The translations under genes and the position numbers were made by a program. This document shows, piece by piece, positions 2,241 through 21,146 of a DNA stretch of 21,692 nt. Source of the DNA: a virus. The DNA lies in IMG/VR virus record IMGVR_UViG_3300046836_000075, positions 1-21,692 of that record; one strand, written 5' to 3'. Positions within the stretch are counted from its first letter, which is position 1. Every line of letters starts with the position of its first letter. Under the pieces are notes generated by a model. It was not told the origin of the DNA. It ran no database searches and worked only from the letters and a program-made list of their open reading frames with translations.

Positions 2241-5084
2241 TTAGAATCCTTTGATATCTTTGCTGGCTCCATAGCCCCGTATCCCTGTAGGTTTGGTGCT
2301 GCGTGTGATACTAGAGTATCTGGAGATAGCCTTTAAAGGCGTTGGTTCCTTTCTTGCAGCCATGAGGTCTTGACCCATCCCGGACATGGGTACGAACGGT
2401 GCCACGACGTTTCGGAACACCTCACTAGCCTTGGGCGGCCGACCCTCGGCAGCGCTCTTTATCTGCTGACCTCCAGTTATCATGCTACTCACAATCGGCG
2501 CACCGGTATAAACCACGTGGGACAGCATAGACCATCCGAGGGTATCGGTTAGGTGCGCTTCGTGGTTCACGAACTTAGCAGCCCCGTAGAACGCACCTAC
2601 CATAGCTGCGTTCCCTGCTATGAATCGACTATAGTCCCGAGCAACTTCGTACCACGTTCCGTTTGCGCCCCGATTGGCCATGTTGGCAAGGTACTCGCCA
2701 TACTGCGCCGGCCAGACACCGAACGCTCCGATGGACTTGCCCATACCAGTGAATGCTCTCGGACGCTCTAACGCTGAGTACATGAACTGGGTGTTGTCGA
2801 CCATCATCTGTGCGCCGCGATCCGCAGCACCGGCGGCATCACCCCGTTTCATCAGATCCAGGACGATGTTAGCTTCCGGTTGCGAGTACCGGCCAACACC
2901 GGATTTGGTAAGGAACGCGTCGGTGTTGTCTCCAAACTTCTCCGCAGCCCATAGGATCTTAGCGCGCGTGCCCAGGTATACCGGACCCCGAGCCAACAGA
3001 TCAGCATGCCCAAAGGGTGCCATGAACTTGGCTACAGTCTGATCAACGTAGTTTCCAAGCTTGGTCTTGCCGGCGGCATCCAGCTCCCGCATGATGCTCT
3101 CAGAGGCAACCCCAGAGCTTTCTACAGCAGCACGACCTTCCGCCGAAGCCATCTGCCGATAGCCCTCGGCCAGCCACGAGAAGCCCATCGGCCCCAGCGC
3201 CGTCTGGATCGGGTGGAGCAGTCGTCGAATGATTGGTCCGGGTCGACCAGCTAGCATCGCCGCGTACTGTGTCGAAACCATTCGGTTGGCTATCCCGTCG
3301 CCATCTATCGTCCAGCCAAACTTGTCACCTATGTGAGTAATAGATGCACCGAGAGCCTTGGAGAGACGATCGGGAGTGCCATCCAAAACGCTGGTGTAGT
3401 AGTTGACAGCCTGCTTTATCGCGTCGGGTGCGTCTAGGTTAGCTGAGTACTTCTCCTTGAGGTTACGAACAACGGGGGCAGCTTCCGACTCGAATGCGCC
3501 CATCTTGGTGATTTGCTGCATCATCCGAGGCAGATCGCTGGTCTCGAGGTTCACCGATCCCTTGAGCAACGCATCTTGGAATGGCGCCCACTTCTCCTGC
3601 TTTAAAGTATCCTGAGCGTTCTGATCTAGCGCCGGTAGGTACTCGCTGAACAGATCGTGGGATGTAATACCGAAAGGCTCCAACGCTCTGTCGGCTACGT
3701 CGGTAACGGTACTCATCTTCGCGCGGAGCTTGGGCTGCAAGCTCCCACCGTCGGCCCCGCCGATCGAATCCTGAATCATGGCCTGCCAGTCCCCGCGATC
3801 TGTACCTCTTAGGGCTTTGGTAGACGCGTTAGACATTGTCTTGCTGGACGCTTGGAACTTTCGGTTAGCTTGGCTCAGCTGATCGTAGTCTTGGTAGACC
3901 GGGAAGCCCGTATCCTTCTCCAATCGGATGAAGTACCCCTTGGTCCGGCCTACGTACCGCATGATACCCTTCTGGGTAAGCGGGCTAGGATCGTCGAATT
4001 CCCCGTTACCAGGGATATCGTGGATAGGCTCATTGGCCTGTTGAGCCAAATCCGCCATGCCGCCATCTTCCTCTAGAAGCGGCTGGCCAGGTGTCACGGA
4101 CTCGAGGGGCGGTATGTCCTTGCTGGGTTGAGCCTCGAAGATACCTGGCCGCTGCTGCTCCATCCAGGTATCCATCACAGCCTGTTTGTTCTGCTGCTTT
4201 CGGCTAGATAGGCTTAGGCCAGTAGGTCGCTGAACTGGTGTCTGGCCGACCTTCGTCTCTCCGCCACCAGTCGTAACAGCCGAAGCCTGTAGCGCCGCAG
4301 CGGGATCGGTAGGTCCAACCTCGGGCCTAGGCGGGCCAGCTATCTCGGGATATATCTCCTGTCGGGGGATAGGTTTACCGTACTCATCGACCAGTGAAGG
4401 CGCCGGGATCTCGGTAGGTACACCATCCGGCCCGTGCGTCGGGGCGTCAGGCTTGGTCAAGACACTTACATGCTCCTCGATCTGAGGAACACCCGAGATC
4501 TCTTTGACCGCCTGTGCCTTGACTCCTGCCAGGTTATGAACAGCTTGGAGGCCGCCAGCGGTCAAGAACGCTATAGCATTCTGACCGGCGCTGTTAACCT
4601 CTCCGGTCTCAGCCATGCTGATAGCGTTACTGCTAACTACCCCGAGTGTGCCGGACTTAGCCACGGCAGTTAGGATCGCGTCGCCCATCGGAATACCCGC
4701 AAAGGCGGCGTCGCTCCCTCCTTCCGCGAGAGTTCGCCAGGGGTTGTATTCCTTGCGCTCCCCCCGATGCTTTTCCATAGCCTGGCCGGCTATATCACCT
4801 ACGAAACCACCAAGAGCAGCACCGGTAGCTATCCCCGCGGGACCTCCTGGGATACCCGCTATGCCTCCAAGGATTGGACCGGCTGTCCTAGCGATGGTCG
4901 GCGCGTATTCGACAGCCTTCTGTCCAAGGTCGGACAGACCCATGTATTCGTCGCCGCCAGCATCCGGTGGTTTAGCACCAGCCTTCTGTTGCTGGTCGAT
5001 GACATCATGGACGTGGTTAGTCATCTCGGGGGTAGGGTTATCTCCGAGATCTACCTTGCTGCCATCTGGTAGAGCAACAATCAT
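2241..5084 (-). CDS. Large internal virion / DNA-ejection-type protein
   Basis: This 947-aa protein is the last gene of the leftward late operon. Its ATG directly abuts the TAA of the preceding gene, with GAGG about 6 nt before the start. The N-terminus MIVALPDGSKVDLGDNP resembles the short LPDG leader of many phage internal virion proteins. Residues about 58-105 are a Gly/Ala-rich hydrophobic stretch with glycine-zipper spacing. Residues 205-350 are Pro/Gln-rich and probably disordered. A helical region follows from about 450. Residues 750-800 (DNTQFMYSALERP, then GVWPAQYGEYLANM) resemble a C-terminal module common in very large phage virion proteins. Two further hydrophobic helices lie at about 820-838 and 850-872. 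No lytic transglycosylase motif was recognised. Size, order and membrane-like segments suggest a T7 gp15/gp16-like ejection protein; this is inference. Confidence 0.7.
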   Translation of the reverse strand: MIVALPDGSKVDLGDNPTPEMTNHVHDVIDQQQKAGAKPPDAGGDEYMGLSDLGQKAVEYAPTIARTAGPILGGIAGIPGGPAGIATGAALGGFVGDIAGQAMEKHRGERKEYNPWRTLAEGGSDAAFAGIPMGDAILTAVAKSGTLGVVSSNAISMAETGEVNSAGQNAIAFLTAGGLQAVHNLAGVKAQAVKEISGVPQIEEHVSVLTKPDAPTHGPDGVPTEIPAPSLVDEYGKPIPRQEIYPEIAGPPRPEVGPTDPAAALQASAVTTGGGETKVGQTPVQRPTGLSLSSRKQQNKQAVMDTWMEQQRPGIFEAQPSKDIPPLESVTPGQPLLEEDGGMADLAQQANEPIHDIPGNGEFDDPSPLTQKGIMRYVGRTKGYFIRLEKDTGFPVYQDYDQLSQANRKFQASSKTMSNASTKALRGTDRGDWQAMIQDSIGGADGGSLQPKLRAKMSTVTDVADRALEPFGITSHDLFSEYLPALDQNAQDTLKQEKWAPFQDALLKGSVNLETSDLPRMMQQITKMGAFESEAAPVVRNLKEKYSANLDAPDAIKQAVNYYTSVLDGTPDRLSKALGASITHIGDKFGWTIDGDGIANRMVSTQYAAMLAGRPGPIIRRLLHPIQTALGPMGFSWLAEGYRQMASAEGRAAVESSGVASESIMRELDAAGKTKLGNYVDQTVAKFMAPFGHADLLARGPVYLGTRAKILWAAEKFGDNTDAFLTKSGVGRYSQPEANIVLDLMKRGDAAGAADRGAQMMVDNTQFMYSALERPRAFTGMGKSIGAFGVWPAQYGEYLANMANRGANGTWYEVARDYSRFIAGNAAMVGAFYGAAKFVNHEAHLTDTLGWSMLSHVVYTGAPIVSSMITGGQQIKSAAEGRPPKASEVFRNVVAPFVPMSGMGQDLMAARKEPTPLKAISRYSSITRSTKPTGIRGYGASKDIKGF

Positions 5085-6386
5085 TTACTGCCTCGGATGA
5101 GCCTTCTGGAAGTCTTCGTAAGACATAGTTCCACCAGTTGTGTCTGGTGCGGCTCCAGCCGGCTTCTTTTTCTTGAGTGCTGCGCTTACCGCTCCGACCA
5201 GTGCTGGGCTGACACCCGGGATAGATGCGATGAGCGGTTGGAGCAACGAGGGCTTCGAGTCCGTGGATGTGTAACCGTAGGCCGAGTTGGCCTTGTTTAG
5301 CGCCCACTCCGCCCAGCCACCTTCACCGCTCATTGTACCTAGAGCGTTGATGGAGTCTTCATCGAAGCCGCCCTGCCGCATCAGGTTGGGTATTTCCTTG
5401 TTGAGCATCGTTTCCATATGAGTTTGGGCGTCGCCACCGATAGTCTTGGCCATTCGGTACGAGTCCGTGAGGAGCTTCATCTGCTTAGCAGCCGTGTTGA
5501 TACCTTTATCGGCGAGCAGCGTATCCATCCTGGTGTTGGCCGCATCCAATCGGGCCTTATTAGCTGCTATTGAGGCACTGCTGGCCGCGACGGATGCCGC
5601 TTTAGTCTGCGTGTCAGAGATGGTCTTTGCGTCTTTGTTCGACAGCTTCGTCGGCATGACCTCATTTGGGTACGTCGAGTACCACTGAGGCTCCGTCATC
5701 AGCGTGTTGCTCTTTGGATCTAGCACGTATGGAGATGGAAGCCCATCGGTCTTTGTCGATGCTTCGATCTTACCCCTGTTAGCCAACGCCTGTCTTGCCA
5801 TTCCACCAGCGTTGGCTAACTCCTGCTTGTTTAAGCCGTACTGCCCGGTAAGAATCGTGTTCTGGATCTTGGTATCGTTATCCGCTGCGGCCTTAGCAGC
5901 GTCACCTGCGATCTTCTCCCGATCAGTAGCATCCTTCATCTTTTGAAGCTGTAGATCGTTAGCCGCCTTGAAGGGATCTTGCTCCTTCTCTGCTATCCCC
6001 GCAATGACCTTGCCAGCCTGTGGATCATCCCCGAGCAGCTTGATCGTTGATCGCTTGATTACAGTATCCAGGTCCGGGGTGATCTTGACGTTGCCCTGTT
6101 CGTCAGTAGGCAACGGCACACCAAGGATACCTGGCAACTTGTTCTTGGCCTCTTGTGGCAGGTTGTCCATGCCACCGGACATCGCGCCAGCCATCGTCAT
6201 GGACGCCAGATCACTCTTTTGCTTTTGAGCTTTGAGGTCCTGGTACTGAGTAACGATGTCCATGATGTTCTTGCCGGCGCTACCGATGGTTTCCTGCAAC
6301 ATCTTGGCCCGCATTTGCGTAGCCTCGGCACGCTCGAGCGCTGGCTTCGCTGGATCGAGGACAATGGTCTCGGGAGTACCGGCCAT
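5085..6386 (-). CDS. Putative internal virion protein
   Basis: This 433-aa, highly helical protein is rich in Ala, Lys, Gln and Asp. The ATG at 6386 is preferred over a GTG one codon earlier because AGGTGA sits just upstream. The N-terminal half has coiled-coil-like stretches such as ALERAEATQMRAKMLQETIG and DLQLQKMKDATDREKIAG. Residues about 255-310 form a long Ala/Ser/Lys helix. A hydrophobic segment, LLQPLIASIPGVSPALVGAV, precedes a lysine cluster near the C-terminus. The gene lies 8 nt after the 269-aa gene and directly upstream of the 947-aa gene. Helical, Ala-rich proteins at this position are typical of the internal core or ejection proteins of podoviruses. No enzymatic motif was seen and no specific family is claimed. 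Confidence 0.6.
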   Translation of the reverse strand: MAGTPETIVLDPAKPALERAEATQMRAKMLQETIGSAGKNIMDIVTQYQDLKAQKQKSDLASMTMAGAMSGGMDNLPQEAKNKLPGILGVPLPTDEQGNVKITPDLDTVIKRSTIKLLGDDPQAGKVIAGIAEKEQDPFKAANDLQLQKMKDATDREKIAGDAAKAAADNDTKIQNTILTGQYGLNKQELANAGGMARQALANRGKIEASTKTDGLPSPYVLDPKSNTLMTEPQWYSTYPNEVMPTKLSNKDAKTISDTQTKAASVAASSASIAANKARLDAANTRMDTLLADKGINTAAKQMKLLTDSYRMAKTIGGDAQTHMETMLNKEIPNLMRQGGFDEDSINALGTMSGEGGWAEWALNKANSAYGYTSTDSKPSLLQPLIASIPGVSPALVGAVSAALKKKKPAGAAPDTTGGTMSYEDFQKAHPRQ

Positions 6387-6394
6387 CACTCACC

Positions 6395-7204
6395 TCACTG
6401 TTGCGTAACGACGGAGCCCGGCGGCGAGAACGTCGAGGACCAGTTGAGCATCTTGTCCATCATCTCCGGTGGGCTGGTGCCCATCAGATAGTTTTGCCAG
6501 GCCGTTTGAGCTGCCTGCTGCTGAATGTTGCCGCGGCTAGCACCAACGCCCTGCAGGACCTGCATAGTTCCGCCAAGCTCCTGCATCCGCTGCTGGTTCA
6601 GGTTTGTCATCGCGGTGATACCCTGAGCCGATAGGTCCGTTAGACCTTTCCGGCGCATATCCGCAGAGGCAGTCGTGAGGTCCGATGTGTAACGGCCACC
6701 TCGAGCCCCGTACGCTTCGGTGAGGTCAGCCGTCTGCTTGTCGAGCTCTCGCTCCATCAGATCCTTGTAGGTACCGAACTGCTCCTGATAGGATGGTAGC
6801 GGCATCGCGTTTAAGCGAGACAGATTTGCCGTGGCGGCGTCGCCGGCAGTCGTTAGCTCCTTCGGCATTGGCAGTTCATAGTTCGATACGAACTTGCTGT
6901 ACCAGTCCGGATCCTGTGTCGCAGCCGGCGGGGGCTTCGGTGCGATAGGGGCTCCGCCTGGTGTCGCCGCTGGCGCCCCAGGTCGAACTGGGGTGATCCC
7001 ATACTGCTGGGTCATGCCGGCCCAGTTCTGACCCCGCTTGGACGCAGCCGCCTTGCCAGTTTCGAGGCCACCCAACTGCTTGGTGATGTTCGGATGCGCC
7101 GCCATATATTGGCTAAAGGCATCCTGGCCACCTGAGATGGCGCCCGTAAAGGCTGTTCGGCCCTTCTTACCGAGGCCGAGGCCTAGCCCTAAACCCTTTG
7201 CCAT
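6395..7204 (-). CDS. Putative internal virion / structural protein
   Basis: The 269-aa product starts at MAKGLGLGLGLGKKGR. This start is chosen over one 11 codons upstream because it lies 1 nt after the TAA of the preceding gene and has a purine-rich GGGGAAG before it. The N-terminus is a Gly/Leu repeat followed by a basic patch. Residues about 70-95 are Pro/Ala-rich (RPGAPAATPGGAPIAPKPPP) and likely a flexible linker. Residues about 130-250 are helical with many Gln and Met, including TAMTNLNQQRMQELGGTM. No catalytic motif is visible. Its place between the 202-aa and 433-aa proteins puts it in the internal-protein group of the late operon. The function is inferred from context only. Confidence 0.6.
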   Translation of the reverse strand: MAKGLGLGLGLGKKGRTAFTGAISGGQDAFSQYMAAHPNITKQLGGLETGKAAASKRGQNWAGMTQQYGITPVRPGAPAATPGGAPIAPKPPPAATQDPDWYSKFVSNYELPMPKELTTAGDAATANLSRLNAMPLPSYQEQFGTYKDLMERELDKQTADLTEAYGARGGRYTSDLTTASADMRRKGLTDLSAQGITAMTNLNQQRMQELGGTMQVLQGVGASRGNIQQQAAQTAWQNYLMGTSPPEMMDKMLNWSSTFSPPGSVVTQQ

Positions 7205-7205
7205 G

Positions 7206-7814
7206 TTACTTCCCCGGAGGCGGGAAGCCACCGCCACCCGATGCTAGCTTGGTCTGAACCTTGCCCAGCTTGGTGCCGATATTGCTGAGCCTTGTGTTGA
7301 TCGCTGCGCTACCGGCCACGCCGGAGGTCTGACCCCGCGCCTGCAAGTTCTTCTGGCGGGCGGTGAGCATACCGAGCTGGGCCAGCGGTCCAGTTGCACC
7401 GCCACGAGCCCGCTCCTGACCAAGGAACACCTGCTGCGCCGGGGTCAGTTCGGTCTGGCTCTTGTCCACGAACGGAGTCTTCAGCCCAGTATGCGGATCA
7501 ACGATCCCTAGCTGTGCGGCCTCCGCTGGGGTGAAGCCCGTATCCGTGATTGGATACTTGGCCGTTCCGCCAGAGGCAGCGAACTCCTGCAAGCTCGGGC
7601 GCGTCGAGGTTGCGTTCTCGGCGAGAAGGCGAGCGCTGTAGGACTGAAGGCCCCGCGTGGGACCGAAGCCCTTCAACTGCTTCTCTGTGAAGCCGCCTCC
7701 GCCTCCACTTCCCTTACTACCGCCGAGGGCGCCAGTTTGTGAGGCTACGCCCATCCCAACGCTAGCTACGGTTGCTACCGTACCTGCGACTACGGCTGCT
7801 GTTGCGGCACACAT
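7206..7814 (-). CDS. Putative internal virion protein with hydrophobic N-terminus
   Basis: This 202-aa protein has a strong Shine-Dalgarno, AGGAGG, 5 nt before the ATG. Residues 3-31 form an uncharged Ala/Val/Gly segment (ATAAVVAGTVATVASVGMGV) that could insert in a membrane. A Gly-rich linker (KGSGGGGGF) follows, then a soluble, mostly helical body, and the C-terminus is Gly/Pro-rich. A short Ala/Gly hydrophobic N-terminus followed by a Gly linker resembles the small internal virion proteins of T7-like phages (gp14-like), which form part of the channel used to deliver DNA through the cell envelope. The gene starts the four-gene internal-protein block, right after the oxygenase-like gene. The homology is not certain. 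Confidence 0.6.
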   Translation of the reverse strand: MCAATAAVVAGTVATVASVGMGVASQTGALGGSKGSGGGGGFTEKQLKGFGPTRGLQSYSARLLAENATSTRPSLQEFAASGGTAKYPITDTGFTPAEAAQLGIVDPHTGLKTPFVDKSQTELTPAQQVFLGQERARGGATGPLAQLGMLTARQKNLQARGQTSGVAGSAAINTRLSNIGTKLGKVQTKLASGGGGFPPPGK

Positions 7815-7823
7815 ACGATCCTC

Positions 7824-8411
7824 CTATATATCGAAGAAGGCAACGAAGACCATTCGGCCTTCTGTTGGGTTACTTCCGAACCCGCCTACAGGCTTAGAGG
7901 CATGAAAGAATTGGGTGGACATAACGATTGCCCGGTTCCACTCCATATCCGCTACGCCAGTTACCCGCCACATCTCGAGATTATTGCAATCCTGCTGCCA
8001 TGTATCTAGCTCCGCCTGTGTAGATGGTGTAGTCTCCATGCCCGTTTCGGCATGCTTGAGGAGCCATGTACCTGATCCTTCTGGAAACTGCCCCGGCGGA
8101 TTGAGGTAAACCGTACAGGCGTACTTGGCATACGTATGATCGAGATGAACTATGCGGCGGTCATCCTCGACCTGGCGGTTCATCGTAAGGCGTAGAAACG
8201 CCAAGTTAATCTTGGCCGGGTTACGGAGCAAGTATGATAGCTTGACCTCCGCCTCGTTCTTGAACACCCATGCGGGGTCCTTACAGACGCCCTTATATGT
8301 CATCCCATCGACGGGAGATGTCTCCTCCCGGAAGCCTTTTGCGAGAGCCCAGTTACGAAGTTCCCAAGGCTCCTCGAAGAAATCATCTACTACGATATGA
8401 TGTAAGTTCAT
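7824..8411 (-). CDS. 2OG-Fe(II) oxygenase-like protein
   Basis: This 195-aa protein shows the signature of 2-oxoglutarate/Fe(II) dioxygenases. It has an HxD motif at H89-L90-D91 (VHLDHTYAKYACTVYLNPP), a distal histidine at H170 in TQFFHASKPVGGFG, and an arginine at R186 in EGRMVFVAFFD that would bind the 2OG carboxylate. The strand order YACTVYLN...GTWLLKH...NRAIVMS fits the double-stranded beta-helix core, and the overall look is of the prolyl-hydroxylase/DUF6445-like branch. Such enzymes oxidise proteins, nucleic acids or small molecules; the substrate here is unknown. The ATG overlaps the stop of the second GNAT gene (ATGA), so the two are probably coupled. An oxygenase among virion genes is unusual for a T7-like order. 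Catalytic residues look intact. Confidence 0.75.
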   Translation of the reverse strand: MNLHHIVVDDFFEEPWELRNWALAKGFREETSPVDGMTYKGVCKDPAWVFKNEAEVKLSYLLRNPAKINLAFLRLTMNRQVEDDRRIVHLDHTYAKYACTVYLNPPGQFPEGSGTWLLKHAETGMETTPSTQAELDTWQQDCNNLEMWRVTGVADMEWNRAIVMSTQFFHASKPVGGFGSNPTEGRMVFVAFFDI

Positions 8412-8848
8412 TTAATGTAGTGACTCTCTAAGAGCTGAAAGCCCTTTCTCTCGAGAATGCGCTGCCACAGATCAGTGCGGCCAGAGTGGATGTGACCAAC
8501 CATGACTCTAACTGCGCCCCTAGAACGAGCAACCGTATCAAATTCATCAAGCAAGCGCATCCCGTGCCCGCGGGTATCCGCTGTGACGAACCAGAACTGC
8601 TCAACTGCGACGAATGCATGGTCATTCAGATCCCGGACTATCGTCCCCCCGATCGCTCCCTTCAGAGTTTGGTTCTTCATCAATCCGATTATCAGGGCGG
8701 AGCCCTGTCGGAGCAAGCTCTTCCACGATTCGATCCAGAGTTCCGGTACAAACTTCCCGGGCATCCCCATCTCTTTCCAGAACTCCAGCCCCATCGGAGC
8801 TAGCTGCTGCAATTGTTCGGGCCGTGTAACGCCACACGTCCTCCACAA
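8408..8848 (-). CDS. GNAT acetyltransferase-like protein 2
   Basis: A GNAT fold is read in residues 1-146, counting from a TTG at 8848. It has an N-terminal strand and helix (VTRPEQLQQLAPMGLEFW), the central strand AIGGTIVRDLND...FVAVEQFWFV, and the acetyl-CoA loop at residues 93-98 (RGHGMR). The canonical pattern is RxxGxG/A, so the last small residue is replaced by Arg. The C-terminal part, ILERKGFQLLESHYIK, is the usual end of the fold. The start is uncertain: TTG 8848 gives a full domain without a good Shine-Dalgarno; ATG 8794 would remove the first strand; ATG 8920 adds 24 residues. The whole 5' part overlaps the upstream GNAT gene in another frame. The substrate is unknown, and it could be a virion component rather than an enzyme. 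Confidence 0.7.
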   Translation of the reverse strand: MWRTCGVTRPEQLQQLAPMGLEFWKEMGMPGKFVPELWIESWKSLLRQGSALIIGLMKNQTLKGAIGGTIVRDLNDHAFVAVEQFWFVTADTRGHGMRLLDEFDTVARSRGAVRVMVGHIHSGRTDLWQRILERKGFQLLESHYIK

Positions 8849-9305
8849 GAAGTCCGAAGAGATCGCAGTCTTCGAAGCTGCCGTTCTTCGCTCGGTAAGA
8901 TCGTCTAACGATTCCTTCATGGCGGAAACCCAATCTTCTAGCCAGCTTGGCCACGACTTCCCGTGTACGGGGGACAAGCATGGATATCCGTGCGAGTCCA
9001 GCGATCTTGAACATTTCCGATAACGCGGAGTGGATGCTCTCCTCACGGCCCCGCAATTGCCTGTCGAACATAATGATGCCCAGCCAGGCATCCATGTCCG
9101 GCGTCACTCGTTCGGCATACACAAGACCGACTTCGTCTGTACCGTCCAAGACGACGAAGAACAGTGAGTCGCGTTGCATCAACCACCGTCCAAAAGATTC
9201 GATGGTTCCCCACTGCGGATGCCACGCGAGAGGGACCTGCTGGCACCTTAGCCATAACTCACGAAGGTAGTTGTCGCTCGGGACTATCAGTGGCTTCCAC
9301 GTCAT
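8622..9305 (-). CDS. GNAT acetyltransferase-like protein 1, long overlapping tail
   Basis: From the ATG at 9305 (CGGAG 7 nt upstream; an alternative ATG lies 6 codons earlier) the protein has 227 residues. Residues 1-157 look like a RimJ/RimL-type GNAT domain, with SLFFVVLDGTDEVGLVYAE, WLGIIMFDRQLRG and the end motif LARRLGFRHEGIVRRSYRA. The acetyl-CoA loop at about 85-90 reads RGREES, far from RxxGxG/A, so catalysis may be lost. The last 70 residues are acidic and low in hydrophobics. They lie out of frame over the start of the second GNAT gene and look like read-through of an ancestral end. The position after the nozzle gene matches that of T7 gp13, an internal virion protein with a GNAT-like fold. 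Function is not certain. Confidence 0.7.
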   Translation of the reverse strand: MTWKPLIVPSDNYLRELWLRCQQVPLAWHPQWGTIESFGRWLMQRDSLFFVVLDGTDEVGLVYAERVTPDMDAWLGIIMFDRQLRGREESIHSALSEMFKIAGLARISMLVPRTREVVAKLARRLGFRHEGIVRRSYRAKNGSFEDCDLFGLLVEDVWRYTARTIAAASSDGAGVLERDGDAREVCTGTLDRIVEELAPTGLRPDNRIDEEPNSEGSDRGDDSPGSE

Positions 9306-9465
9306 TGTCGTGCTCCGCACCATTGGTGCTCGCGAGGCTCTGAATTAGCTCATCTACTAGAGTTATCGCGCCTCGGGTCTGTTCGACCACAGTTAACGCA
9401 TCCCGATGGGTTTCAACGAGTTGTGCGCGTCGCTGCGCCAGCGACTCTATAGAAATCTGTGCCAT
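9259..9465 (-). CDS. Small coiled-coil-like phage protein
   Basis: This 68-aa protein starts at an ATG with GGAGTAGG directly upstream. Residues 1-47 (MAQISIESLAQRRAQLVETH, then ...ALTVVEQTRGAITLVDELIQ) form one amphipathic helix with heptad-like leucines and alanines. Short proteins of this shape, beginning MA.(I/V)S(I/L)E.L..QRAQL, recur in phage late operons without known function. The tail is polar and acidic. It overlaps the preceding gene by 19 nt and the first GNAT gene by about 47 nt, so all three are probably translated together. It may be a structural oligomer or a chaperone; nothing in the sequence decides. Confidence 0.6.
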   Translation of the reverse strand: MAQISIESLAQRRAQLVETHRDALTVVEQTRGAITLVDELIQSLASTNGAEHDNDVEATDSPERQLPS

Positions 9466-9747: not shown

Positions 9748-11334
9748 TCAGGGAGTGTAGCCAGGAGGTTGATCCAAAGCCAAGTACGGACCGCCCGGCA
9801 CGAACTCTTCGATGAGTCCCTGCCACCGAAATACTGGCTTAGCTGAGGTCTGTCGAATTCGGAATCGAGCTACGTTACCAGTTACTTTCCAATCCGCCAA
9901 CCCGAATCCTACCGCGTTAGGAGTTATCAAGAACGTTCGCCACGATCGTCCACGATCAGTTGAGATGCCTAACTCAAACTTATCTGCATCGTTGTTGTAC
10001 ATGTAGATCAGCATGAGCCGCTCTACGGTTCGCTGAAGAAACGGCCCGCTAGAGTCGGGCATCATCAAGGTACTTGTAGCCATGTTGGAGTAATAGTCTT
10101 TCGTCTCCACGAAGCAGTCGATGAGTTCGCCGGTGTAGTATCCCTGAATATCCCTGCCAACGGAGATAGTAGTTTTGTCGGTTAGCCCTACTATGAGGCG
10201 CTTGGTAGCTTTGGAGGTCATGGACTGCCAAGTAGTCATGCCCCATGAGCCCCAGGATCCAACCGCGTTACCCCAGTTATTCGGGGTAACGTAGAACTCC
10301 GCATCTCCGATCGCAACGATATTCGGGAAGTAGTCGATCATCCACCGGTTCTGGAGGAAGTCGAACACGTATACGTAGGGACCTCCAAACCAGAGCCAAT
10401 ACTCATTCTGATCCGGGTAGATCTTCCCAAAGTAGACGTCCCGGCCCCCTACAGGATCCACCACGTTCTCGATAGTCTTGTAGATAGGGTCGCCAATAGA
10501 TTGTAGCTGCGACCCGTTCCAGCCCCACACGTTACCATCGCTGCCAACGAAGAACAACATAATTCCGTTACATTCGATGGTATACGGATAGACAGTTCCG
10601 ACATTCGAGGTCCGCTGGGCTACCAGGAATATCTGCGCTAGCGATCCTCCAGCGGTAAGCTCTGTCAAGCTATGCTCGCGAAGGACCACCAGCGCATTAG
10701 ACAGAACTTTCATGCCCTGGATAGGCTCTTGCTCCGGCTCGTACAGATCAATGAAACCGGAACCATTACCGCTCCAATCTTCGTGATTACCGTTAACTGG
10801 ATAGCGGATTCGATTCGCCCAGGACTTACCGGCTTCTGCTACGTTAGCGACCACAAGCCGGTTGTTGAAGTACTCAACGAACTTAGCGTTCGTGAATGGA
10901 GCATTAGGCACCGTATCTATAACCGAGGCACCGCCTTTCCAACGATACACTCCGCTACCATTTGTGCGACAGAAGAAGAAGCAATCCTCCCCTGTCGTCC
11001 AATCCCAGCGGCCCGAGCCAGTTAGAGCTACGCCTCCAACCTTGGTCCATTGCAGAACATCACCGGGAGCGTTGGTGCCCCACTTGTAGAACGATTGGTC
11101 CGTGAGCATCACGATCCACTTAGTGACATCGTCCATCGAGAATCGCGCGATCAGTTGGATATTCGAGTCGACTGCTGGCGCGAAGGTAGCTCGACCGGGG
11201 CCGGGACGGATCTCATTGAACCTGAACCGAACGTTGAGCAAGTTAGGGCTCACGCCTTCGGGTAAGCCATCGGCCGGCATCCCGTTATTCATCCCGCCGA
11301 TCGGGATGGCGCGGCGTGCATGTTGAACTGGCAC
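9748..11334 (-). CDS. Tail nozzle / tubular protein (beta-propeller-like)
   Basis: This 528-aa protein starts at a GTG that overlaps the TAG of the upstream gene (TAGTG), with AGGA upstream. It is beta-rich throughout, with aromatic-rich blade-like strands such as KWIVMLTDQSFYKWG, FFFCRTNGSGVYRWKGG and LFFVGSDGNVWGWNG. Residues 175-197 (RIRYPVNGNHEDWSGNGSGF, then IDL) match a pattern typical of phage nozzle or tubular proteins: a gene-product-specific surface 'RhR...(N)..DW...GfidL' block followed by I.GM...LVVLREHSLTEL. In T7 (gp12) and related podoviruses this protein forms the distal end of the short tail. Its position three genes before the GNAT pair and after the adaptor agrees with that. 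A P22 gp10-like role is the main alternative. Confidence 0.75.
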   Translation of the reverse strand: MPVQHARRAIPIGGMNNGMPADGLPEGVSPNLLNVRFRFNEIRPGPGRATFAPAVDSNIQLIARFSMDDVTKWIVMLTDQSFYKWGTNAPGDVLQWTKVGGVALTGSGRWDWTTGEDCFFFCRTNGSGVYRWKGGASVIDTVPNAPFTNAKFVEYFNNRLVVANVAEAGKSWANRIRYPVNGNHEDWSGNGSGFIDLYEPEQEPIQGMKVLSNALVVLREHSLTELTAGGSLAQIFLVAQRTSNVGTVYPYTIECNGIMLFFVGSDGNVWGWNGSQLQSIGDPIYKTIENVVDPVGGRDVYFGKIYPDQNEYWLWFGGPYVYVFDFLQNRWMIDYFPNIVAIGDAEFYVTPNNWGNAVGSWGSWGMTTWQSMTSKATKRLIVGLTDKTTISVGRDIQGYYTGELIDCFVETKDYYSNMATSTLMMPDSSGPFLQRTVERLMLIYMYNNDADKFELGISTDRGRSWRTFLITPNAVGFGLADWKVTGNVARFRIRQTSAKPVFRWQGLIEEFVPGGPYLALDQPPGYTP

Positions 11335-12863: not shown

Positions 12864-14726
12864 CTAACTGAATTCCACAGCGTAGAGAGCACCGTTGCTG
12901 TCAGCCGATGTTGACAGGCCACCACCAGCCAACCAGCCCCAGAGTGAATATGTATGGGAGCCCACTGTCGAGGCGAAGAATGCGTTGATACCTGGCATGG
13001 CCTGACTCACGCTCGATGCGATCTTCATCGACGCGATAGCGGTATTGTCCATTCGCAACTGCAAGTATGCGGTCGTCGCACCACCAAACACCGAAACGAG
13101 TCCTGGGTTCGCGAGTAGAAGCACGTAGCCGCCACGGCTTACCATCGCTGGAGTAATTGCTATCTGTGTCCAGACGCTCGTAGCAGGAATCGAGAAGGAA
13201 GTGGGCATGGAAACCCACTGGAAGTTGTTGACGGTGTGTCCCACAGCAATCATGGCACGAAGGACAGACAGATCCGCTAGAGTGCAGACTGTCTTGCCAT
13301 CGCTGCCGCGCACAGATAGTGACGACGCAAACGCTGGAGCACCAGCCGTAGCCGGAGCACGGTATACGGTAAGGGCATCTCCACCGCCCACATTGATCTG
13401 CCAGCTCGCCTTAGCAACATCATCGAGAGCTGCACCCGCCGCGTTAGAATTCACCCGAAGCTGCACCGCACCCGCCGCTGAGTTGAGAACCAGATATCCC
13501 TTGGCCAAACCTCCTGCTGGCGCGCTCGCTGCAAGAATATCGCCAGCCAGGCCACTAGCAGCAGCAGATACCAATGTAGTTAGCTTTGTCTGATCGATCG
13601 GAGAAAGCGCTGCGCCGACGACATTCCAAAGATTCTTTTGAGCGACAACGAGCGTCGGGTTCGGATACGTGCCAGCAAGGTCTCCGCCAGCGGCGCCATT
13701 TGGCGGAAATGCTGTGGGAGCACCAGTGATCTTAGCCCACGCAACATCGTTGATCTTCGCGCTGGTAATCGCTAGCGGAGCTACGACCGGATTCGGATAC
13801 GTACTTCCCGCGAGATCGCCGCCGGCAGCACCCGACGGCGGTACTGTGACACCAGCAGCCAGCTTCGCTGCGGTAATAGTACCGTCGGGGATCTTCGAGG
13901 CTGTGATCGCTCCGTCGCTGATCTTAGCGGTTGTAACGCCGTTAGGCGCATCAGCGATATAAGCTGTAGTGACCTGCCCGGGCGTCAAGTTCGCAGGGGG
14001 CGTTGGCTGGTAGATGAGGCCCGTGCCAGTCGGATTGACTGACACGATCATGTTTGCGTTGCCCGGCGTAAGTTGAGGTGGGAACGCGGCCTGGTCCGCT
14101 GCAACTAGCCGGTCCCTCGTTACGACGCCCGGAGCGATCTTCGCGTTAGAGACTGCGGCTGCTGCGATAATTGGGTTCGGATATGAAGAGCCGGCCAGAT
14201 CCCCACCAGCTGCGCCGTTAGGCGGTAGCGTTGTAGGAATAAGGCCGGCCCGTACAGTCGGATTTGGATAGGTCCCTACAAGATCACCGCCGGCTGCGCC
14301 ACTCGGAGGAAGCGACGTAGGAGCTCCGGTGATCTTTGCCCAGCCTACCGAGGTAACCTTCGCATCAGTCACCGCTCCATTGGCGAGCTTAGGATTCGTG
14401 ACTGATCCATCGGCTATCGGTATCACGATAGCTGGATCTAGGAGACCAGCAGTTATGGTGCCGTTCGCGATCTGTGCCGCCGTAATGGTCTTGTCCGCGA
14501 TCTCCGCCGAGGTGAGCGTCTTGAGGACAATCTTGACGTTAGTGAGCGACCGGTCCTGGACCTGCGGTGGTCCGACAGAGCCGTTGTCGAGCGGCCGGTT
14601 AACCGCATCGTAGAGGACATTGAGATCATCGTCAAGCTCGCTAGCCGGCAATTCAGAATAGCCGCTCGATACCTCGTCGACGTACTGCTGATTGCCGCCG
14701 ATCTTCGTAGGTCGCACGAAACTCAT
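12864..14726 (-). CDS. Tail fibre / spike protein with repeated motifs
   Basis: This 620-aa protein starts at an ATG in a TGATG overlap, with GGGGAG 7 nt upstream (a GTG one codon earlier is less likely). Residues 68-125 and 190-290 consist of degenerate repeats of the kind ITAAQIANGTITAGLL / ITASKIPDGTITAAKL, predicted as a beta-helical or fibrous shaft. Four copies of PP(S/N)GAAGGDLxGxYPNP lie at about 140-158, 168-186, 296-314 and 341-358, and WAKITGAPT occurs twice (129-137 and 330-338). The C-terminal 120 residues (NFQWVSMPTSFSIPATS to the end, with YLQLRMDNTAIASMK) look like a compact beta-sandwich tip. Such repeats are common in host-binding fibres of environmental phages. Host receptor binding is inferred. 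Confidence 0.7.
   Translation of the reverse strand: MSFVRPTKIGGNQQYVDEVSSGYSELPASELDDDLNVLYDAVNRPLDNGSVGPPQVQDRSLTNVKIVLKTLTSAEIADKTITAAQIANGTITAGLLDPAIVIPIADGSVTNPKLANGAVTDAKVTSVGWAKITGAPTSLPPSGAAGGDLVGTYPNPTVRAGLIPTTLPPNGAAGGDLAGSSYPNPIIAAAAVSNAKIAPGVVTRDRLVAADQAAFPPQLTPGNANMIVSVNPTGTGLIYQPTPPANLTPGQVTTAYIADAPNGVTTAKISDGAITASKIPDGTITAAKLAAGVTVPPSGAAGGDLAGSTYPNPVVAPLAITSAKINDVAWAKITGAPTAFPPNGAAGGDLAGTYPNPTLVVAQKNLWNVVGAALSPIDQTKLTTLVSAAASGLAGDILAASAPAGGLAKGYLVLNSAAGAVQLRVNSNAAGAALDDVAKASWQINVGGGDALTVYRAPATAGAPAFASSLSVRGSDGKTVCTLADLSVLRAMIAVGHTVNNFQWVSMPTSFSIPATSVWTQIAITPAMVSRGGYVLLLANPGLVSVFGGATTAYLQLRMDNTAIASMKIASSVSQAMPGINAFFASTVGSHTYSLWGWLAGGGLSTSADSNGALYAVEFS
13640..14560 (-). repeat. 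Protein-coding repeats within the fibre gene
   Basis: This segment encodes the shaft. Four degenerate copies encode GAAGGDLxGxYPNP (around 14309, 14225, 13841 and 13706), and many shorter copies encode I(T/A).AKIADGTIT. Codons differ between copies, so the repeat is kept at protein level rather than being a recent DNA duplication. Copy-number change by recombination could alter fibre length. Confidence 0.6.
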
Positions 14727-15400
14727 CACTTAACTCCCCATACGCATTGGATAGGCGTACCGGCTGAAAGCCCAACGCTAGCGGGATCGAACATGCTTAC
14801 ATCAACGTGTCCACCCGGATCTGCTGCGATGAAAGCCGCGGTTGCCGTCCAATCCTGATAGCGCGTTACGCCATCCGTCGACCAAATCTGGATACGCTGG
14901 CCTACCTGCATCTTGGTCCAGTCGATGTTGACCCACGCTGATCCAAAGCTAATATACAAGGTATCAGTAGGGTTTACCGGATCATTGTAGGTAGAACCAA
15001 TCAAGTTTGGACCATGCGCCCACGAATCCCACGTTACGAGGTCCATTAGGATAGTTGGCGCCGGAGGCACGACGACCTCGACGGTCGGCGGTTGACCTAC
15101 ACGAGGCTCAGCGGTCATTCGAAATTTGCCGGTATCGAAGGATGAAGTCCCAAAGAAGAATCCGTAGTCCTGCGTGACGGTTCCTTGATCGGGGACCTGC
15201 TGCTGCGTCGGATTCGGCCTCTCGTTCTCGGGGAGCCGTAGCTGCTCCATGAAGTCAGAGGCAGCCAGTTCGTCCGCACACTTCATATCCACGAGGACCT
15301 TGTACTTATAATGGCGGACCATCTCAGTCTGGGGGAAGTCCAGACCGCAGATGGCACACTCGGCCCACGAGGACTTGGCGTATCGTGCGTATTGGCTCAC
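14726..15400 (-). CDS. Hypothetical protein with N-terminal Cys cluster
   Basis: This 224-aa protein starts at a GTG; no ATG is available nearby. Residues C15, C18, H30 and C41 (ECAICGLDFPQTEMVRHY... MKCADE) could bind zinc, similar to the CxxCG(L)DFP start often seen in phage late genes. Residues 55-115 are polar and Pro-rich. The C-terminal half is beta-rich with many Trp (WDSWAHGPNLIGS, YISFGSAWVNIDWTKM) and resembles a carbohydrate- or structural-type beta-sandwich. It lies directly before the 620-aa fibre gene, to which it is joined by TGATG. It may be part of the fibre attachment set; no named family is recognised. Confidence 0.6.
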   Translation of the reverse strand: MSQYARYAKSSWAECAICGLDFPQTEMVRHYKYKVLVDMKCADELAASDFMEQLRLPENERPNPTQQQVPDQGTVTQDYGFFFGTSSFDTGKFRMTAEPRVGQPPTVEVVVPPAPTILMDLVTWDSWAHGPNLIGSTYNDPVNPTDTLYISFGSAWVNIDWTKMQVGQRIQIWSTDGVTRYQDWTATAAFIAADPGGHVDVSMFDPASVGLSAGTPIQCVWGVK

Positions 15401-15885: not shown

Positions 15886-16623
15886 CTAACTGAGCGCGTA
15901 CGTCATCCAGTTGGCAGCAACGTCGAACTTCGGTGTATTCGTAGCGTCGATGTACAACGCTATCGCGGTCTTGTGATCGCCACTGAGCAGGATGATCGCC
16001 CCCGACTTGCCCGCGGATTCGACCACGAGAGCCTCACTGTCGTCGTCGTAACCGAAGACAGTCCTGCCATCCCGGCGGTTGCCCAAGGAGCCTGAGCCGG
16101 CTGGGATCGTCAGAGCCATGTGATTGGTTGGATCGCCAGCCGCCCACGCGACCTCGTCACCATAGCAGAGTTGAGGCGTCGCGCCTTCTGTGATGTAGAA
16201 GTACATGATCTTCGAGCTAGCGGAGTACATGATCCCAAAGGCTGGCAGGTTCGCGTTGTTCGCGGTGAACTTGGGACCACAGACCTTCACGGAGCTCGAG
16301 ACTCGATCGGAGCCTAGAACCGTTACGCCTCGAACCCCGCTAGGATCCCACGGAGATGTGGGAATAGCGGTGCCGATCGCGACGCCAGTACCGGGGCTTG
16401 TCATGACCTCGGTGACACCACCGATCCGGGGGGTAACGGTAGTGGTGCCATCGAGGTAGATGTAGTATTCGGCGGGGTTATTCGGCGAAGGGCCGGCGGG
16501 ACTAGGACCCCCACCCCGGCCCATCACCAACACCCCGCAGGTGGACAGCTTCGACTGGATCCCGATTGCGCTAACTGCGCGCTCGGAACCCAGAGCTGTC
16601 ACCTTGCGAGGATACTTGATCAT
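15886..16623 (-). CDS. Hypothetical structural protein after the capsid gene
   Basis: The 245-aa product starts at MIKYPRKVTALGSERAV. The ATG overlaps the capsid TGA (TGATG), with GGAGG 6 nt before. Earlier starts in the same frame lie inside the capsid gene and are rejected. The sequence is beta-rich and low in charge. A short internal repeat, VTALGSERAVS at 8-18 and VTVLGSDRVSS at 100-110, suggests two related N-terminal segments. Residues 37-50 are Gly/Pro/Ser-rich, likely a hinge. The C-terminal part (TVFGYDDDSEALVVESAGKS, then AIILLSGDHKTAIALYID) looks like a beta-sandwich. The position next to the capsid suggests a head-associated protein. I do not recognise a family. Confidence 0.6.
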   Translation of the reverse strand: MIKYPRKVTALGSERAVSAIGIQSKLSTCGVLVMGRGGGPSPAGPSPNNPAEYYIYLDGTTTVTPRIGGVTEVMTSPGTGVAIGTAIPTSPWDPSGVRGVTVLGSDRVSSSVKVCGPKFTANNANLPAFGIMYSASSKIMYFYITEGATPQLCYGDEVAWAAGDPTNHMALTIPAGSGSLGNRRDGRTVFGYDDDSEALVVESAGKSGAIILLSGDHKTAIALYIDATNTPKFDVAANWMTYALS

Positions 16624-17534
16624 CAGACCCCTCCGGACGACCCGTAGAGGTTGCGCCACTCCGAGCAGCCGGCGCTGAGACGCTGCGTGCACTTGAACTT
16701 CGCATCGCCAGTGTCGAAGTCGTCGCCGTTCTGCAGGGTGATCTGCCGACGGTTGAACATGACGAGTCCGTCCTCGGAGTCCTTGTCGCTGATGACCCAC
16801 CATGCGTCCGGATCGGTGAGGTACCGCGACCAGATCGGCGTGAGCCGACCCTTGAGCGGGTTGACCTCGTTGTTCGCGGTGAACGGCCGGTACTCGGACT
16901 CGAGCAGCTCGGTCACGAGGAACAGGTCGCTCGGATGGAACAGGAGGGTTCGCGGCTCGACATCGACGGGTAGCCGCTGATCGTCGACCATCGTGTTGAA
17001 GTTCAGGATCGCCGCCTCGAGTGCCGCGTAGCTGATATCGACATCGTTGGTCGGCCGGTTCGCCAACACGCCACCTCCAAGGAGGTTGTGCGTGGTGGAG
17101 ACGAGAGGCTGGAGGACGCCCTTCTTCGGGAAGCCGTACTCCGTGGTGAAGGAGTTGTTCACCACATTGAAACAGAGGACTTCCCGAGCGACGAGAGCGG
17201 AACGCTTGAGAGCGCGCCCGTTCTTTTTGATCACGTCGTACAGGTCGTCTTCGAGCATCTCCTCCGAAGCCCGGAAGCCCTGACCGAAGGTCAGGTGAGT
17301 GAACCGCTTCGGTTCACCCTGGATCATGTCCTGGTAGATGATCGGAGTGCCCTGAGGCTTGAGGGGCTGGACGCCGAGGGCAGCGACTTCCAGGTTTTCC
17401 TCCCACGCGCGGGACGAGGTCTCGACCTTGAAGATCCTCTCGTACTCGGTTGGCGCGTCCTTCTTGTACAGGAAGAACACGTTTCGCACGCCGGGGACGA
17501 GTAGCCTACTGAATGCACCAGTTACGGCTGCCAT
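16623..17534 (-). CDS. Major capsid protein (HK97-fold type)
   Basis: This 303-aa protein has a TGATG start with GGAGG 6 nt upstream. The pattern fits a compact HK97-fold capsid subunit. There is an N-terminal segment, an extended-loop region (FKVETSSRAWEENLEVAALG), a spine-type helix at about 87-125 with FRASEEMLEDDLYDVIKKNG, and a later central domain containing VDVEPRTLLFHPSDLFLVTE. The end QRLSAGCSEWRNLYGSSGG is typical of tailed-phage capsid proteins. It follows portal, scaffold and decoration-like genes, which strongly supports the call. Third codon positions are unusually C/G-rich compared with neighbours, consistent with high expression. The short length suggests no N-terminal maturation domain, in line with a separate scaffold gene. 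Confidence 0.85.
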   Translation of the reverse strand: MAAVTGAFSRLLVPGVRNVFFLYKKDAPTEYERIFKVETSSRAWEENLEVAALGVQPLKPQGTPIIYQDMIQGEPKRFTHLTFGQGFRASEEMLEDDLYDVIKKNGRALKRSALVAREVLCFNVVNNSFTTEYGFPKKGVLQPLVSTTHNLLGGGVLANRPTNDVDISYAALEAAILNFNTMVDDQRLPVDVEPRTLLFHPSDLFLVTELLESEYRPFTANNEVNPLKGRLTPIWSRYLTDPDAWWVISDKDSEDGLVMFNRRQITLQNGDDFDTGDAKFKCTQRLSAGCSEWRNLYGSSGGV

Positions 17535-19161: not shown

Positions 19162-19384
19162 CTTCAGTCTCCACTATTTCGGTTGCCACATCTTGTTTGA
19201 GCTCGAGTAACTGATCTATTACTCGTATACCAGCTCGAGTTTCGATAAATTGCTCCCAGTTATCAGACTCCAGGAGCTCCCCCATTGCCGCCTCCCGGAG
19301 GGAGCATAGGCGGTCCAGCAGCGCCTGGACCACCGGGCCCTGGAGGGCCTCCCATAGCTCCCGGAGGTCCTTGAATCCCTCCAT
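19124..19384 (-). CDS. Small helical protein overlapping the portal tail
   Basis: This 86-aa protein begins MEGFKDLRELWEALQGPVVQ and contains the pattern SDNWEQFIETRAGIRVIDQL, much like small proteins in many phages between portal and capsid (about 'W.EF...RG.I.ALR.L'). An ideal AGGAGG (19390-19395) lies 5 nt before the ATG and is itself part of the portal Pro/Gly codons. The first 41 codons overlap the portal 3' end out of frame and the last 12 overlap the scaffold start. It is a single amphipathic helix pair by eye. The role is unknown; an assembly factor linked to portal or scaffold is plausible. Confidence 0.7.
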   Translation of the reverse strand: MEGFKDLRELWEALQGPVVQALLDRLCSLREAAMGELLESDNWEQFIETRAGIRVIDQLLELKQDVATEIVETEDARRHDAGDYDS

Positions 19385-21146
19385 TTGGTCCTCCTGGCAT
19401 TCCAGGTTGTTGTTGCGGTGGTTGGAACGACTGCATCAGATCCGGTATATCTACCGGCGGCTGATCGAAGGTCATCATGGTTCGCTTGACAAGCTCAGTG
19501 AGCGATTCCATGTATTTGGCGGTATAGTCTTTGACCTGCGGCGGGATCTGTGGATTCGCGAGGAGCATGGCGGCCTGCTGACCGGCTTGCAAGTTTTGAG
19601 TTAGCATCTGGAGCAACTGAAGCAAACCAGCTTGCTCGACCTGCTTGTTGATCGTGGCGCTCGAGGCGGTAAGGGAGAAGCCTAGCATGTTTGAGATGAT
19701 CTCATCGGGCATGTCGAACGCAAACTCAGTCATTGCTCCCTGCGGACCTTGCGTAACATACGAGAGCCCTTTGGGACGGTATTGGTGGTTAAGTTCGAAT
19801 AGCATTCGACCAATTGCTCCGTAAGACTCACGCATGTCTCTAACATTGAGATCGAATCGTCGATTACCTTCCTGGATGATCGCAAGAGTTCCAGTTGCCG
19901 TCGCACGGTCGCCGATAGCTGACGATTCTCGTCCAAGAGAATAATCGCTAATTCCTGAGCGTCTTTCGGCATAGGCCATCACCGAGACTTCGAGCTGTCT
20001 CATGCTGTTGTAGACTTCGCCCATCTGCATCACTTTGATGTCAGATTCGGGGTTAGGAGTAGTCAACATTCTGCCAGGCCAGATGCGCGTGTCAGCCTTG
20101 ACTACTCCTCGCTTTCCGAGGAACCAACGAGTGTTGGCGAGAGTCGCGTTGTCAAGTTGCTGGCAGTGGATCGTAGAGACCTCATCCTGCATGAACTTGA
20201 GCTGATCGACGATGCCGTATCCCTCGGACTTCGATCCCCGAAGTTCGACGAAGCGTGTTTTCACATAAGGCACCCCTCCTGTAAAGAGCGGGTTATAGAT
20301 GCACCTCATGATCGTCTTGGTTGGCCGGTGATATGTGACGACGATGGAAACCGGAGGCTTTCTCGGGCCTTCGAGGGGAAACTGGAGCCACAGTTCGTAA
20401 AAGCGATTCAGCTTTACGCGGAACGCGTTCTCATAGTTCTTGGTCTGGTTCAGACGCTCTTGCGGATTCTCCTTGGAATCGATGACGGTCTCGACATCTT
20501 TGTAAACTCCGTCGAGGTACTTCATGCGGAGCGTACCATCGGTAGCGTCGATAACCTGGCCCATCCATTCGGCATCAAACGGATTATCTACCCCGACCTG
20601 TGTTAGCATCTGGGATATCGGGATGTAGTAGACGTTAGGCTTCTTGGTCGTTATGTCGTAATAGCTGTGGTCTTGCGGGTTCCAAACCCGGCGCGATTGA
20701 ACGTCCCAGATGATTTTGAGCCACGACCAGCCTAGCTGGACCGTTTCAATAGCGTTAGATTTGACCGCGGTGTACATATCGAATTCCGTTTGCCGGGACC
20801 ATTCCATCTGGCCCTCAACTGACTTCGAGATGTCGGCCATGCGCGGATTGATAGCACGCACGGACCAAAAGGGCTGTACACCGAAGATAGTGTTAACGAT
20901 CCTGGCGACAATTGAGTCGACGGTAATTCCGATAGAAGGAATGACGAGGTTAGCTGCGCCGCGCCAGGGGAAGGTCTTGATCTTCGTTTTCGGTTCCGCC
21001 TTGTAGAACCTATCACACTCGTCCACCCTATCGAGAAGTTTGTCATTCTCGATTAGAGCCTCCTCGAGTTCCGGATCAATGTACGCTTGTAGGCGCTTGA
21101 CCTGCTCGGAGGTCAAACTAACGTCGATGCCAGGAGAAGCTTCCAT
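19263..21146 (-). CDS. Portal protein
   Basis: The 627-aa product is the twelve-fold head vertex protein through which DNA is packaged and ejected. Evidence includes the N-terminal helix before FPWRGAANLVIPSIGITVDS, the segment TAVKSNAIETVQLGWSWLKI, and the later pattern RRSGISDYSLGRESSAIGDR followed by ATATGTLAIIQEG, which is typical of portals in short-tailed phages. The tail from about residue 570 is Pro/Gly/Gln-rich, unlike the rest, and also encodes the start of the 86-aa gene in another frame. GGAGG lies 8 nt before the ATG, but the nine bases around it are complementary to bases just after the preceding stop codon. The scaffold and capsid genes follow directly. Confidence 0.85.
   Translation of the reverse strand: MEASPGIDVSLTSEQVKRLQAYIDPELEEALIENDKLLDRVDECDRFYKAEPKTKIKTFPWRGAANLVIPSIGITVDSIVARIVNTIFGVQPFWSVRAINPRMADISKSVEGQMEWSRQTEFDMYTAVKSNAIETVQLGWSWLKIIWDVQSRRVWNPQDHSYYDITTKKPNVYYIPISQMLTQVGVDNPFDAEWMGQVIDATDGTLRMKYLDGVYKDVETVIDSKENPQERLNQTKNYENAFRVKLNRFYELWLQFPLEGPRKPPVSIVVTYHRPTKTIMRCIYNPLFTGGVPYVKTRFVELRGSKSEGYGIVDQLKFMQDEVSTIHCQQLDNATLANTRWFLGKRGVVKADTRIWPGRMLTTPNPESDIKVMQMGEVYNSMRQLEVSVMAYAERRSGISDYSLGRESSAIGDRATATGTLAIIQEGNRRFDLNVRDMRESYGAIGRMLFELNHQYRPKGLSYVTQGPQGAMTEFAFDMPDEIISNMLGFSLTASSATINKQVEQAGLLQLLQMLTQNLQAGQQAAMLLANPQIPPQVKDYTAKYMESLTELVKRTMMTFDQPPVDIPDLMQSFQPPQQQPGMPGGPNGGIQGPPGAMGGPPGPGGPGAAGPPMLPPGGGNGGAPGV

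Follow-up and report, generated by a model that had tools for sequence, protein, structure and literature searches.

The stretch analysed here (the window) is a 21,692-base contig from an uncultivated phage, IMG/VR record IMGVR_UViG_3300046836_000075, in which all virion genes lie on the minus strand, from the portal through the candidate ejection proteins. The portal protein (19263..21146, minus strand; phrog_1216, 2.4e-13) and major capsid protein (16623..17534, minus; phrog_371, 4e-12; 33% identity to the Pag-Yong1 capsid protein) precede a fibre gene (12864-14729, minus), which itself lies upstream of a virion structural gene (9748..11334, minus) on the nozzle side of the locus. The latter has homologues in contigs L017, L098-L102, L134 and L141, and the L134 homologue matches phrog_3287, a virion structural protein (6e-15). 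A gene for 68 amino acids (9259..9465, minus), with a homologue in L003, leads into a cassette of three genes: GNAT1 (8622..9305, minus; 227 aa, from the ATG at 9305 to the stop at 8622), GNAT2 (8408..8920, minus; 170 aa, phrog_1249 family) and a 2OG-Fe(II) oxygenase (7824..8411, minus; 195 aa, DUF6445/phrog_1644). The original prediction had placed two GNATs and a 2OG oxygenase in the virion operon, with the nozzle-side genes on one side and the internal virion proteins on the other, and we confirmed both coordinates and strand. The 5′ end of GNAT1 overlaps the preceding gene by 47 nt in the window (9259-9305), while in L098-L102 and L141 it reaches as far as ~140 nt into the structural gene on the nozzle side, provided that translation begins at the first start codon.

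The first gene past the cassette (7206..7814, minus) encodes a 202-aa candidate small ejection protein with a hydrophobic N-terminus. It is kept downstream of the oxygenase in the window-lineage genomes, and in L150 and L033 the gene at the equivalent place is a phrog_598 DNA ejection protein. A further gene (6395-7237, minus) separates it from candidate middle (5085..6389, minus; 434 aa) and large (2241..5084, minus; 947 aa) ejection proteins, which were assigned by position and size only and have homologues in L003 and L004. A near-identity search of the whole window against 50,697 phage records returned no match, a promoter and terminator scan gave no clear excess over shuffles, and there was no tRNA or Rfam match. 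By capsid, the closest named phages are Pag-Yong1, CRP-902, HTVC023P and their relatives (~33% identity); the phage is not T7-like. A related contig of 45.9 kb with a 97-base terminal repeat (G002) encodes a phage terminase, a DNA polymerase, a primase-type protein, a Sak4-like annealing protein and an exonuclease. Its replication region also encodes a 486-aa protein whose N-terminus matches ParB-like nucleases and whose C-terminus matches DNA methyltransferases (L112:14043-15503, minus).

We characterized the oxygenase by profile, alignment and structure comparison. It matched phrog_1644 (1.4e-15; PHROG name "minor coat protein") and DUF6445 (PF20043; 2.2e-7, 31.5 bits, above the curated 24-bit cut-off), a family that no paper names in the non-subscription literature searched. 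The HxD...H iron triad and the downstream arginine for 2OG are present at exactly the residues predicted (H89, D91, H170 and R186), and all four are invariant in an alignment of ten homologues with identities of 30-82%. Their invariance down to 30% identity argues for kept catalysis. The structure was predicted from four sequences with moderate confidence (pLDDT 70), and its Foldseek matches in the PDB were 2OG oxygenases such as ColD, proline hydroxylase H11, PHD2 and collagen P3H1 (E 1e-5 to 4e-4), sharing the double-stranded beta-helix with a probability of 1.00 but a TM of only 0.4-0.5. Viral 2OG proteins were matched in BFVD.

GNAT1 consists of a GNAT fold (~residues 1-165) followed by an acidic tail (residues 167-227; 17 D/E versus 7 K/R among 67 residues). 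The AlphaFold pLDDT falls from ~80 in the core to ~30 in the tail, which is probably disordered. The protein matched phrog_1249 acetyltransferases (3e-6) and, below the 24.3-bit cut-off, PF13420 (0.0028; 18.1 bits), and its model matched SpeG-type acetyltransferases (E 6.5e-9, TMt 0.74). The structure comparisons called for originally thus support the predicted folds of GNAT1 (GNAT) and of the oxygenase (2OG). The CoA loop of GNAT1 reads MFDRxLRGRE, with RGRE in every homologue; it has no GxG and does not follow the [R/Q]xxGx[G/A] pattern. Because the loop lacks GxG, GNAT1 is more likely a non-acetylating GNAT-fold protein, and the acetylation that had been proposed is doubtful for it. Full-length GNAT1 is restricted to the window lineage (10 genomes), a tblastn search of phage records returned no match, and a lone GNAT at the equivalent slot of L033 (16376-16828) gave a weak partial match (2e-3). 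As judged from homology, GNAT1 is a lineage-specific addition.

The start of GNAT2 was set at the ATG at 8920, since L003 and L004 share the residues MKES there. GNAT2 also matched phrog_1249 (2e-6 for the window, 1.9e-15 for the L102 homologue). The window protein had no Pfam match, and the L102 homologue matched PF00583 (26.8 bits versus a 20.7-bit cut-off). All ten GNAT2 proteins carry [R/K]GxG just ahead of a helix, with the first R/Q of the motif replaced by D/A in an ungapped reading; as the GxG of the CoA loop is kept, GNAT2 may be a real acetyltransferase. A tblastn search of phage records with GNAT2 returned no match. The two GNATs have no profile similarity to each other, and we rejected a recent tandem duplication.

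GNAT2, and not GNAT1, is homologous to the lone GNATs of CRP-902 (gp35) and QDWS535 (gp16) at the matching place, a homology at the family level across long branches. On these comparisons, it is GNAT2 that corresponds to the single GNAT found in the same slot of other podoviruses. This reverses the original assignment, in which the first GNAT might correspond to T7 gp13 and the second would then be an addition. The GNAT that cobaviruses carry beside their internal virion proteins has been proposed as the counterpart of T7 gp13 (PMC6775973), and the GNAT of ZP6 is located after a tail tubular gene (PMC8515928). T7 gp13 has the same gene position as the cassette, between nozzle and ejection proteins (tail gene 12 and gp14-16), but T7 has no oxygenase at this slot. 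When the single gp13 sequence was aligned to the GNATs with hhalign, the probabilities were 2.1 (GNAT2) and 0.2 (GNAT1), showing no sequence or profile similarity. The relation is therefore positional: T7 gp13 is a positional counterpart only, and the link comes from PMC6775973. The gp13 family (PF11090, phrog_308) carries the label "probable scaffold".

The junctions between the three genes had been described as overlapping, and both do overlap. The GNAT2 stop and oxygenase start share the 4-nt sequence ATGA (8408..8411, minus), which likely couples the translation of the two genes. The GNAT1/GNAT2 overlap is 299 nt (8622..8920, minus), far above what had been implied, and covers the GNAT1 tail and the N-terminal 58% of GNAT2 in two frames; the GNAT1 frame stays open until 8622, so the tail has to be read through the 5′ half of GNAT2. 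The out-of-frame overlap is kept in 10/10 genomes, with lengths of 299 nt (window, L003 and L004), 290 nt (L017), 269 nt (L098), 257 nt (L099), 224 nt (L100), 218 nt (L141), 215 nt (L102) and 212 nt (L134).

We compared the overlap with random codings in which the GNAT2 amino acids were fixed and codons were drawn from phage usage; the other frame was open in only 1-2% of them in each of three genomes. We then counted synonymous changes, defined as changed codons with an unchanged amino acid, inside and outside the overlapped part of GNAT2. Their frequency was approximately halved within the overlap (14/71 versus 32/58 for window-L004, 11/67 versus 21/51 for L017-L098, 11/52 versus 33/74 for L100-L102 and 15/43 versus 32/60 for L134-L141; Fisher-combined p of 5.6e-8 over these four pairs). 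The remaining genome pairs had a weaker effect, nearly all in the same direction. A codon effect at 5′ ends was rejected as the cause: no such drop was seen in the opening 90 codons of either the oxygenase or the 7206-7814 gene. An RNA element located in the overlap would be another possible cause of the reduced synonymous change. Since the overlap is kept and synonymous change within it is reduced, both frames of 8622..8920 appear to be under selection. The region would then be a long stretch in which two GNAT-type genes are encoded on the same strand in different frames, each under selection that can be measured.

Ten other contigs, including one from the same species as the window, also have the cassette, which is therefore not a chance arrangement. 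The gene-order survey proposed with the original prediction found it in the same slot in all close relatives recovered, which speaks against an unrelated insertion. Scans with progressively broader oxygenase alignments yielded three sets of IMG/VR contigs, and a search of genome contigs with one narrow pattern confirmed no oxygenase relative. A GNAT lies directly beside the oxygenase in 21/23 of the IMG/VR contigs read (~16/18 once near-identical contigs are merged). The order GNAT1-GNAT2-oxygenase defines the window lineage (window/L002, L003, L004, L017, L098, L099, L100, L102, L134 and L141), and the order oxygenase-GNAT occurs in L103-L107, whose layout resembles that of Zobellviridae phage CRP-4, and in L133, L139, L143, L150/L151 and L152. 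Upstream, the pair is flanked by proteins of the nozzle, tail or head closure (phrog_8094, phrog_578, phrog_511 and phrog_3287); downstream come ejection proteins (phrog_598 DNA ejection and phrog_12003 internal virion protein). At least four podovirus architectures therefore bring the oxygenase and a GNAT together at a single functional slot. The opposite gene orders and the long branches are compatible with repeated assembly of the pair or with its rearrangement.

Known phages hold parts of this arrangement. The cobaviruses SIO1 (pc40) and CRP-4 (gp41), of the Zobellviridae, likewise have a phrog_1249 GNAT between nozzle-type and internal virion protein genes, but the GNAT is single and has no long overlap; no oxygenase was detected in the CRP-4 record. 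HTVC023P, a podovirus with a related capsid, encodes tandem 2OG oxygenases in its tail region (gp65/gp66; L014:37256-38526), and these were not recovered as homologues of the window oxygenase. The same DUF6445/phrog_1644 family occurs in the T4-like cyanophage S-SSM7 (SSSM7_030) and in Marine virus AG-345-L05, whose full-length copy keeps HxD...H...R. Unlike the podoviruses described here, S-SSM7 is a myovirus, and its oxygenase adjoins a tail fibre gene and has no GNAT beside it. In S-SSM7 (L108:2632-3970), the phrog_1644 protein directly precedes a second 2OG-Fe(II) oxygenase, behind the large tail fibre gene. Two contigs that form the third set, L142 and L149, likewise carry the oxygenase within a tail module and have no GNAT. 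Together with the T4-like cyanophage relatives near tail fibre genes, they indicate that the oxygenase does not need a GNAT. In L142 (4400-5546), the oxygenase gene overlaps a methyltransferase-like gene.

The explanation that we favour, tentatively and at a little short of even chances, is that the oxygenase is an active hydroxylase, made late, whose target during assembly is a virion or ejection protein, and that GNAT2 is its structural partner from the gp13 slot. The cassette would serve the podovirus ejection module as an accessory unit expressed late, in which GNAT2 would act as the gp13-slot morphogenesis or ejection-complex protein and the oxygenase, translationally coupled to it, would hydroxylate a nozzle, ejection or fibre protein as the particle is built. 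GNAT2, joined by GNAT1 through its acidic tail, would be an adaptor and not an acetylating enzyme, and the 299-nt overlap and ATGA junction would hold the three products at a fixed ratio. Placement in a late operon alone does not prove a virion target. A wider version, in which a widespread two-protein unit of podoviruses hydroxylates their own ejection or tail machinery by way of a GNAT-fold adaptor, and in this lineage the acidic, disordered tail of the additional GNAT, overprinted on the other GNAT, is needed for the complex, is on the unlikely side.

Several mechanisms could otherwise account for the cassette. One possibility is that the particle carries the oxygenase and one or both GNATs alongside its ejection proteins, and that they arrive in the cell with the DNA to modify proteins of the host early in infection. 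The cassette does sit among ejection genes, GNAT2 retains its GxG loop, and there is a precedent for a phage GNAT-like protein that alters a protein post-translationally: Rac of phiKMV-like phages leads to cleavage of the host RNA polymerase (PMC7552054). Rac has a host target and serves as an example of a host-acting GNAT only. No fusion of a cassette protein to an ejection protein was seen. We consider such ejected effectors unlikely.

Somewhat less probable again is a purely structural or morphogenetic role, in which all three proteins have lost catalysis or do not need it. The absence of a GxG CoA loop from GNAT1 in all homologues, the "minor coat protein" name of phrog_1644 and the scaffold label of the T7 gp13 family speak for such a role. 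However, the HxD...H...R set is invariant across a large divergence, which structure alone would not need, and the coat label appears on an annotation of S-SSM7 and may be misleading.

The oxygenase could instead be a prolyl hydroxylase of collagen-like fibres, acting on Gly-X-Y repeats encoded by the same genomes. Prolyl hydroxylases, collagen P3H1 among them, are its closest structural matches, and PF01391 repeats occur in 6/9 window-lineage records with the oxygenase versus 2/40 records without it; among the misses is the window, a fragment from a species that a positive record also represents. All six positives have prolines at the Y position. These positives form one clade and are not independent, though, and the association is broken in both directions: a 48.8-kb contig (G007; L100) has the oxygenase and no Gly-X-Y repeats, and G015 has repeats and no oxygenase. 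The second lineage, represented by fragments, has no repeats. Fibre hydroxylation of this kind is accordingly improbable. The repeats recorded lie at L111:8202-8363 (the same species, just past the window end), L112:307-486, L114:264-434 and 13622-13756, L115:13277-13519, L118:6274-6390, L098:3079-3159, L123:369-620 and L127:7469-8538.

Least probable of all, at a very small chance, is an auxiliary metabolism or DNA repair gene merely sitting in the late operon, auxiliary metabolism being the usual classification of such oxygenases and GNATs in phages (PMC11288001, PMC3037559); a GNAT-adjacent place at the ejection slot recurs across lineages, which is unexpected for an unlinked metabolic gene.

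GNATs at the ejection slot have been described before, as have 2OG oxygenases of phages, and the literature read treats the two separately (PMC11288001). Neither their pairing at this slot nor the dual-coding overlap appears to have been reported in the non-subscription literature searched. The pairing points to the phage particle itself as the place to look for the substrate of these oxygenases and GNATs, and its recurrence bears on the role of gp13-slot proteins. Because the pair recurs at one spot in several types of phage, it suggests that the assembly or delivery of the phage particle includes a step of protein modification not recognised before.
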